Positions 31,609-33,081 of a stretch of 33,081 nucleotides of DNA are shown one piece after another (the stretch's first letter is position 1; every line of letters begins with the position of its first letter). Source of the DNA: Promethearchaeota archaeon (GTDB lineage: Archaea; Asgardarchaeota; Lokiarchaeia; Sigyniarchaeales; SOKP01); assembly GCA_016839915.1 (NCBI GenBank), contig JAEOTH010000022.1, positions 1 through 33,081 of the forward strand, written 5' to 3'. Under the pieces are notes generated by a model, which saw only the letters and a program-made list of their open reading frames with translations, ran no database searches and was not told where the DNA came from. A program made the position numbers and the translations under genes.

Positions 31609-32709
31609 CTAATCATCACTACTCATTAATATTAGTCTTTCATAATCCAAATTTAATAATTTTAATTCTTTCTCTGAAATCTCACTAATTTGTTCATTCA
31701 CTTTAACTAATTCTTTTCTTAATTCAATTAATGAGTTTTGAATATTGTTTACAATCCCCCCCTCGTTATATGAGATTTTTTCAATAAAATCTAAATAACT
31801 ATATTTTTTTTCCTTGCCAGAATAATTATTTTTCAAATCTTTCAATTTTGAATCAATTTCTTCGAGATAGTTCCGATTTTTTAAAAATGATAATAATTGA
31901 GATTTCCACTTTTTAAAAATGTCATCATTTTCATTTATTTTATCAAAATTAAACTTATCTGACAGTTCCACTTTCTCATCTTTAAGATATTGTATTATAT
32001 CTTTATTTTCTTCTATTGCCTTATTAATTTTTTTTATAAGTAGTTTAGTATTCAATGCAGGATCCAAAATTTTAATAAAATTATTAATTTTAGCTTGAAT
32101 TTCTTTAAACCTTTGATAAAAACCTTCAATTGTCACTTCAATTTTAATTGTCTGATAAATATTCCCGTATTGATCTAATATATAATAAAAATCATCTGGT
32201 AATGTATAATCATGTTCACCAATGGCAATAATTAAAGAGTGAATTACATTACTTTTCTCACATCGCACCCCTAATAGCCTAGTGAGAGCTAAATTGAAAT
32301 TTCTTCTAGATATAAATTTAAATTTCTTATTTATAATTAAAAATAGAATATCATCGGGGATAGAAATTGTATCATTTTCAACAGTTATAGTTTCTTCTCC
32401 TAATTTTATAATGAAATCATCATCTTTCTGTTTAAACTCTCTAATACTGCGAATATTTTTAACTAAACCTAAATCTATATAAATATCAATAAATTCTTCA
32501 TCCCAAAAATTTACAACGTTGCTCTTATAAATTTCATCTAGCATTAATACTCTCTCATAGGATTCAATAAGACTATTGTTAGATAAATCTTTAAATAAAT
32601 CATTTCTGATAATATATAAGAAAAGAATTATATATTTCATATCCAAATTATCAAGAGTGTTCTCGATCAAGTTTTTATCATGTTCCAAAGTTAAATTTAT
32701 ATGTTCCAT
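31609..32709 (-). CDS. Hypothetical coiled-coil protein, first gene of the AAA/SMC-like block
   Basis: A protein of about 366 residues from ATG 32707-32709; TTG 32715 is the alternative start. The N-terminal ~190 residues are globular and alpha/beta. The remainder is dominated by coiled-coil helices (IQNSLIELRKELVKVNEQIS, EISEKELKLLNLDYERLI). I do not recognise it. As the first gene it sets the block's promoter within 32716-32880, an AT-rich stretch shared with the divergent elf1 gene. An SMC-block subunit is inferred from context. Confidence 0.6.
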   Translation of the reverse strand: MEHINLTLEHDKNLIENTLDNLDMKYIILFLYIIRNDLFKDLSNNSLIESYERVLMLDEIYKSNVVNFWDEEFIDIYIDLGLVKNIRSIREFKQKDDDFIIKLGEETITVENDTISIPDDILFLIINKKFKFISRRNFNLALTRLLGVRCEKSNVIHSLIIAIGEHDYTLPDDFYYILDQYGNIYQTIKIEVTIEGFYQRFKEIQAKINNFIKILDPALNTKLLIKKINKAIEENKDIIQYLKDEKVELSDKFNFDKINENDDIFKKWKSQLLSFLKNRNYLEEIDSKLKDLKNNYSGKEKKYSYLDFIEKISYNEGGIVNNIQNSLIELRKELVKVNEQISEISEKELKLLNLDYERLILMSSDD

Positions 32710-32880
32710 GCCCAAAATCCACTCATTTTTTTTAATTTGCTAAAACTATTCAGTGAAAAAGAGTAATTGAAGGAATTAACCATTCCTAAAAAATTTTACT
32801 AAAATCTATTAACACTTTTAACATAAAAGCAAAAATATTTTAGCGTCTCTTTTCTTTATTCTAAATGAATATTGATTAAA

Positions 32881-32890
32881 TTTATATAAT
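32881..32890 (+). promoter_or_regulatory. TATA box of elf1
   Basis: TTTATATAAT lies 27 nt ahead of the elf1 ATG and is identical to the SAM synthetase box. An AGGAGAG site at 32895-32901 also precedes the ATG, so the transcript may be leaderless or use that site from an upstream start. Confidence 0.6.
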
Positions 32891-32907
32891 ATTTAGGAGA
32901 GATACCT

Positions 32908-33081
32908 ATGGGAAGAAGAAAACGTAAACAAGTTGCTCCAAAACGGGTTAAAAGAGTACCTAAAATTTTCACCTGCCCAGAATGAGTAGATCGAATTCCG
33001 GTCTTTCCTTGAATGCGGTGAAAAAAGCGTAAAGGTGACAGATCTTAAAAAGAAAGGTGCATTTGCCACTGTCAAATGCGG
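32908..33081 (+). CDS. elf1: Transcription elongation factor Elf1-like zinc-ribbon protein, split by a 31-nt putative BHB intron (3' end cut)
   Basis: Elf1 is a small zinc-ribbon elongation factor with a basic N-terminus. The frame opens MGRRKRKQVAPKRVKRVPK, IFTCPE, then hits TGA. From 33014, in another frame, the coding continues C-G-E-K-S-V-K-V-T-D-L-K-K-K-G-A-F-A-T-V-K-C-G to the window edge. Removing 32983-33013 (31 nt) joins GAA to TGC and rebuilds the CPECG half-site exactly, followed by the second CG half-site. Without splicing there are three stop codons within about 45 nt. The gene is divergent from the AAA/SMC-like block and has a strong TATA box. A sequencing or assembly error would not be expected to produce a folded, splice-competent insertion. 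Confidence 0.85.
32983..33013 (+). other. Putative archaeal mRNA intron (bulge-helix-bulge) in elf1
   Basis: The fold reads as follows. Outer exon helix: 32966-32976 with 33015-33024 (UUUUCACC with GGUGAAAA plus GC with GC; one bulged U at 32974). Central helix: CCAG (32977-32980) with CUUG (33008-33011), three of four pairs. Bulges: AAU (32981-32983) and AAU (33012-33014), 3 nt each. Inner hairpin: 32984-32993 with 32999-33007, nine pairs, a bulged U and a 5-nt loop. Cutting after the second nucleotide of each bulge removes exactly 31 nt and restores the frame. The topology (5' strand of the central helix in exon 1, 3' strand in the intron) is that of tRNA intron substrates. Confidence 0.8.

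Follow-up and report, generated by a model that had tools for sequence, protein, structure and literature searches.

The end of the 33,081-nt stretch analyzed here (the window; contig C49 of a 3.65 Mb genome in 221 contigs) raises the question of how a gene for the elongation factor Elf1 can be read when its frame closes after 25 codons. The start of elf1 occupies the final 174 bp of the window, with an ATG at 32908; the unspliced frame runs for 25 codons (...FTCPE) into a TGA at 32983, and Elf1 reading continues as CGEKSVKV past a 31-nt insert. As the initial annotation had proposed, the CPxCG zinc half-site is thus split after CPE by 31 nt carrying the in-frame TGA. Exon 1 (25 codons, MGRRKRKQVAPKRVKRVPKIFTCPE; 32908–32982, forward strand, as are all features below) was assigned from the sequence and tblastn comparison with relatives, and the first part of exon 2 (TGC GGT GAA..., 33014–33081) from the overlap of contigs C49 and C196 and tblastn on locus L001. 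The window's end truncates the gene, the remainder of which lies on C196 (stop after position 560), whose positions 1–127 are an exact copy of window positions 32955–33081. Upon removal of the 31 nt, the joined contigs give an open elf1 frame of 192 aa containing the seamless CPECGEKSVKV foreseen in the annotation, and this spliced-frame Elf1 matches Pfam Elf1 with an E-value of 4.5e-18. An intact second elf1, named beforehand as an argument against an intron, was not found in this genome (∼94% complete), in which every elf1 match traces to one gene.

On the basis of sequence comparisons, we consider it highly probable that the 31 nt (TGAGTAG...CTTGAA, 32983–33013; phase 0, in-frame TGA first), inserted at a site common to 28 distinct genes, represent an archaeal bulge-helix-bulge (BHB)-type intron in the protein-coding gene of Elf1. 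This reading is supported by the site, the frame, the structure, its covariation, purifying selection on exon 2 and the enzyme genes present. Since inserts occur at the same spot in many relatives, with changes that preserve the structure, the insert is very probably spliced out of the elf1 mRNA.

The pairing between the flanking exons, previously described as extending over ten base pairs, was found to consist of eight plus two base pairs separated by one unpaired T. The 5′ half of this exon stem (32966–32976) pairs with the 3′ half (33015–33024): in the long part, TTTTCACC (32966–32973) faces GGTGAAAA (33017–33024), and in the short part, following the unpaired T32974, GC at 32975–32976 faces GC at 33015–33016. 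Two 3-nt bulges, both AAT (32981–32983 and 33012–33014), enclose a 4-position central helix formed by the exon strand CCAG (32977–32980) and the intron strand CTTG (33008–33011), and the nine-pair hairpin that had been noted within the insertion lies inside 32984–33007 with an AATTC loop. The bulges and the 4-position helix are likewise present as annotated, the helix being paired at three of its four positions owing to one C•U mismatch. A strict canonical BHB has all four central positions paired, and the window site is therefore classed as a relaxed BHB only. The sequence 32963–33028 folds at −18.8 kcal/mol (z = −3.39), an energy reached by none of 200 shuffled sequences. The minimum-energy fold of the window sequence alone lacks the central helix in BHB register, and this register accordingly derives from the comparison with relatives.

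The rule that a BHB is cut between the second and third bulge nucleotides, as given in PMC2738675, predicts cuts after 32982 and after 33013, in agreement with the junction 32982/33014 of the initial annotation and with the restored frame. Applied to all 28 insert-bearing genes, this rule yields an unbroken frame in every case. The codon preceding the junction (codon x of CPxC) is GAA, GAT, AAT, AAC or CAA, and the residue kept after cutting (E, D, N or Q) is always one used at this position by intron-less family members; L052 keeps N, where its nearest intron-less sister L031 differs in having S. Registers shifted by 1–2 nt, worked out by hand from the codons, would instead place H in L041 and L044 and K in L045. 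In the unspliced frame, a stop lies within the insert in 27 of the 28 genes, and the remaining one (L047, 28 nt) shifts frame.

Comparison with elf1 of relatives, a check suggested at the outset, revealed genes with and without the insert at one exact site. A protein search of 147 genomes, all or nearly all of them MAGs, returned Elf1 matches in 114. By handle count, the window's family comprises 65 of the 147 genomes, with an Elf1 match in 57 and none in eight. The insert site could be read in an orthologue from 50 of these 57, giving 28 genes with and 23 without the insert; the 28 are distinct and come from 28 genomes. In all of them, the insert lies between codon x of CPxC and the following TGC or TGT, and its length is 31 nt in 13 genes, 30 nt in eight, 32 nt in six and 28 nt in one. 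That 28 distinct genes share this site exceeds what chance would produce. Two further family genomes have an Elf1 match to the C-terminal part only, at a contig start, and in the five genomes of genus g7 a diverged Elf1 is encoded by a single open frame that lacks an insert at this position. The g7 frames (L053–L057) are uninterrupted over 253–261 codons and match the Elf1 zinc ribbon twice. We did not count L119 (the window site again), L071 (a paralogue), 15 loci outside the motif pattern (L054–L063, L066, L069, L109–L111) or loci whose match began away from residue 1.

Outside the window's family, no insert was present in the ten elf1 stretches read (L058–L065, L068, L069), the match spans of the other non-family elf1 genes, judged by span alone, show no extra 30 nt over the zinc ribbon, and model R1 detected no elf1 insert in 23 genomes of other families. 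The 43 relatives' loci that carry a name belong to Lokiarchaeota or Lokiarchaeia, the former name being placed under Promethearchaeota by NCBI. One MAG, G003, holds both an intron-bearing and an intron-less elf1 (L032 on C92 and L008 on C169), reflecting either two elf1 copies or a mixed bin (9% contamination). In G004 and G009, single-contig genomes of one genus (90% and 81% complete), no elf1 match was obtained at E 0.001, and the gene is either missing or unreadable there.

The layout of two 3-nt bulges and a 4-position helix between exon and intron stems fits all 28 genes, with the central helix fully paired in seven introns and paired at three of four positions in 21 (the window and 20 of 27 relatives). 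In the alignment used for covariation analysis (28 sequences, 27 distinct rows, 23 pairs), 90.8% of cells are paired in the BHB structure compared to 80.8% in shuffled alignments; both sides changed in 10 of 23 pairs (6.5 in shuffles) and in 59 cells (19.1 in shuffles). Control structures slid along the alignment were 44–51% paired, with at most 15 two-sided cells. The two-sided changes fall in eight of the nine hairpin pairs and two of the four central-helix pairs. None affects the ten exon pairs, which are coding on both sides: two are invariant, five vary on one side and three include unpaired cells. With no structure supplied, RNAalifold recovered the exon stem and the intron hairpin from the aligned relatives, with two-sided changes in 7 of 16 pairs; the central helix was not among its predicted pairs.

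When 13 introns from other genera were used to build a model, the window site was its sole match in 33 kb (E 8e-8), a score to which similarity of the coding exons contributes. In the own genome, model R1 matched elf1 at its insert on C49 and C196 as well as one further position (18.6 bits, E 6), and in the other genomes scanned it gave three weak non-elf1 matches (22.0–24.6 bits), one of them in G021. The 18.6-bit match and two of the three weak matches were rejected as introns of other genes, as they lie inside intact frames. R1 scoring covered 150 of the 3970 first-look candidates of the own genome and 81 candidates in each of the other genomes scanned, so that other genes may still harbor such introns.

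The sequence downstream of the insert, exon 2, is under purifying selection. For exon 2, the median dN/dS among intron-bearing genes is 0.074 (124 pairs, range 0.024–0.66), compared to 0.09 among intron-less genes (34 pairs) and a median of 0.078 in the mixed class (129 pairs, range 0.036–0.837), using pairs of equal length with pS < 0.7 and at least eight synonymous differences; the window's elf1 gives 0.052–0.092 against 11 others. L034, which has an early stop, was excluded from pairwise divergence and dN/dS. Pairing of the exon stem is more complete in genes that carry the intron (p = 2e-5, without correction for kinship), and, likewise uncorrected, the stem-forming codons ACC for Thr (17 of 28 intron-bearing versus 3 of 23 intron-less genes) and TTC for Phe (23 of 28 versus 9 of 23) follow the same trend. 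A kinship-aware comparison of exon pairing and intron presence was not significant, with ∼3 to 4 of eight independent pairs agreeing, none disagreeing, and p between 0.06 and 0.5.

The own genome encodes two proteins with a splicing-endonuclease domain, on contigs C157 and C81. The first is nearest to the solved chains 3p1z and 3ajv and keeps their aligned His, which we take to be the catalytic-triad residue; the second is nearest to 1a79 and carries Ser in place of that chain's His. Judged from these sequences, one catalytic and one structural subunit gene would constitute a two-subunit enzyme as in Crenarchaea. In 2006, Yoshinari reportedly linked a two-subunit endonuclease to cbf5 splicing, and PMC2738675 ties this enzyme type to it. 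The own enzyme, we infer, accepts an imperfect central helix. RtcB is present as well, with archease within the same 4.3-kb locus. Of 64 genomes searched, with or without the intron, 53 yielded at least two endonuclease-domain genes. The 64 include 16 intron-bearing genomes, of which 14 yielded both genes; one each was detected in G011 and G017, and in G017 (94% complete) the second type alone was matched. As the endonuclease genes occur regardless of intron state, the enzyme fails to explain why the intron is restricted to one family.

The same genome gave 23 tRNA matches, of which 11 span 100–112 nt and thus exceed the length of a mature tRNA; ARAGORN predicted no intron-bearing tRNA among these 11. 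A BHB scan of nine of them, leaving out two at contig edges, produced a single convincing case, L169, in a scan that also yields chance-like placements; here, a BHB encloses 31 nt at 37/38, ranking second to a 33-nt register shifted by one base.

We propose the following course of events, in which the cutting, the ligation and the translation of the spliced message are all inferred. In the pre-mRNA, the coding flanks of the first zinc-ribbon half-site (TTTTCACC...GGTGAAAA) would pair and expose the two 3-nt bulges. The encoded endonuclease of catalytic and structural subunits would then cut past the second nucleotide of each bulge, and RtcB, probably with archease, would join the exons to give ...FTCPE-CGEKSVKV... 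and an Elf1 of 192 aa.

Three other explanations have to be weighed against this model. Translational bypassing, known from T4 gene 60, would have the ribosome take off at the GAA before the TGA, skip the hairpin and land on a second GAA. The window does offer matching GAA codons, a stop after the first and a hairpin in the gap; take-off and landing codons match in only 10 of the 28 genes, however, and differ in 18 (AAT/GAT, CAA/GAT, GAA/AAA and others). Moreover, all 28 genes preserve the bulges, the stems and the frame, and bypassing needs no exon stem, making this mechanism extremely unlikely. Hardly any weight can be given either to a broken gene or an assembly artefact, in which the insert is a mutation or an error and Elf1 is lost or truncated. 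Although the contig ends inside elf1 and belongs to a MAG whose contamination amounts to 6.89%, the insert occurs at the same site in 27 other genomes and purifying selection persists on exon 2. The agreement between C49 and C196 covers just their shared 127-mer, and these two contigs therefore do not count as independent.

It is also very unlikely that the insert is a regulatory hairpin that stays unspliced, or a short palindromic element of the DNA, with translation yielding only a 25-aa leader or with splicing as a minor by-product. The compactness of the hairpin and its high turnover on the tree would fit such an element, but one and the same pair of codons flanks all 28 inserts, each of which can be excised scarlessly. 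Covariation also extends to central-helix pairs beyond the hairpin, and such an element would cost the genome the sole elf1 detected in it. The BHB-type intron accounts for the shared site, the frame and the two-sided pair changes in relatives, and these comparisons thus uphold the initial view of a genuine protein-coding intron. Separately, a scan of viral contigs for carriage of elf1 by viruses gave 14 pattern matches, with no relatives among them, and this candidate was rejected.

Several known systems resemble the elf1 case. In PMC2738675, a BHB intron of the cbf5 pre-mRNA is described for Desulfurococcales and Sulfolobales. Similar to elf1, it resides in a conserved coding gene, often forms an unconventional BHB cut between bulge nucleotides 2 and 3 and shows lineage-specific losses. 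Its splicing is linked to a hetero-oligomeric endonuclease, and the two subunit genes of the own genome may encode an enzyme of this type. In contrast, elf1 is another gene in another phylum, and at least eight state changes fall within one family, compared to at least two losses inferred for cbf5 in that paper. In the own genome, a single open frame of 342 aa contains the TruB_N part of the cbf5-type gene; TruB_N matches were obtained in 55 of 58 genomes and, among the matches listed, the only internal stop in the TruB_N domain searched was one TGA in G085. For Haloferax HVO_1309, PMC7714728 reports a 46-nt BHB intron in the 5′ UTR, demonstrated through sequencing of circular RNA and cleavage in vitro. 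Both introns are short and reside in an mRNA, cut by the splicing endonuclease in HVO_1309 and presumably so in elf1; in contrast, the HVO_1309 intron occupies an untranslated region and its cleavage is experimental, whereas the elf1 intron interrupts a coding frame and is derived from sequence. Archaeal tRNA introns with a BHB at 37/38 share the size class, the two 3-nt bulges and the 4-position helix, but the elf1 host is an mRNA and its central helix has one mismatch. Group I and II introns likewise interrupt genes; an intron of either kind was rejected here, as the insert has only 31 nt and no ribozyme core, and no Rfam match, group I/II or other, was obtained in 32000–33081 up to E 1.

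Asgard archaea are held to be nearest to eukaryotes, and a BHB intron in an Asgard protein gene was not found in the open-licence literature, preprints being outside this scope. According to a 2020 paper, cbf5 is the sole further archaeal mRNA for which a BHB intron had been reported besides its own 5′-UTR case (PMC7714728), and a 2026 survey of elongation factors places Elf1 in most Asgard archaea (PMC13289920). The elf1 gene would be a second archaeal coding gene with a BHB intron, in an Asgard transcription factor common to eukaryotes, and would widen the range of mRNA splicing by tRNA machinery. In the annotation of these genomes, gene finders blind to introns of this kind would cut elf1 short or split it.

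On a tree of 51 elf1 genes, from which the junction codons had been excluded, 11 changes of intron state are needed, at least eight of them forced by supported branches. A single gain requires 16 losses (best tree, midpoint root), and gains alone would number 19. Unlike intron states are found in sister genes that are 4–7% apart (L006/L019, L004/L020, L031/L052, L033 versus L046–L051, L002/L011), and intron gain or loss should be directly testable in such near-identical sisters. In L006/L019, the 30 nt preceding the junction differ at −16, −13, −10, −4 and −1, silently in every case, and the 83 nt downstream show no difference; the upstream differences of L004/L020 (−19, −16, −13, −10 and −4) are likewise silent. 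Of these positions, −10, −13 and −16 form part of the exon stem. Three of the five sister contrasts show an excess of change near the junction (5/23, 5/30 and 10/37 differences within 39 nt; hypergeometric p = 0.015, 0.044 and 5e-5, with windows picked after inspection), and the other two show none. This excess may reflect co-conversion of the exon flanks or, equally, selection on pairing.

Introns resemble each other mostly within genera, which favors common descent with many losses. The intron of L016, however, is nearest to that of L020, yet the gene groups beside the window's clade (support 87/81), a mismatch that hints at exchange. The intron was therefore either present early in this Lokiarchaeal family or gained repeatedly, with fast turnover. 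Identical 32-nt introns, loop included, were observed in L046 and L048–L051 from five genomes with exons 3–7% apart, and this conservation seems to exceed what splicing alone would require. Rather doubtfully, we suggest that the elf1 intron may be mobile in living Lokiarchaeal populations, spread or erased by short gene conversions or by reverse-copied spliced message, and that, where it is present, Elf1 supply may be set by a race of the tRNA splicing endonuclease against the first ribosome, which would stop at codon 26. If so, the tRNA machinery would run a splicing switch on an elongation factor common to eukaryotes.

Some further observations concern individual loci. Contigs C49 and C196 both end in the shared 127-bp stretch inside elf1, and no third contig end in the assembly carries this 127-mer; this arrangement suggests a fork in the assembly graph, perhaps caused by strain variation near the intron. 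In L034 (G052, contig C109), the frame of an intron-less elf1 is closed by a stop at codon 121, and a C-terminal piece of elf1 lies apart from it on C100, pointing to either a broken gene or a sequencing error. Finally, in L071 (G015, contig C2:700–2500), a pair of diverged elf1 paralogues is arranged in tandem (identities of 43% and 37%). Both have a BHB-like insert of their own at this zinc-ribbon position (R1 scores of 56.6 and 66.5 bits), and both are otherwise long open frames with a second zinc ribbon at the end.
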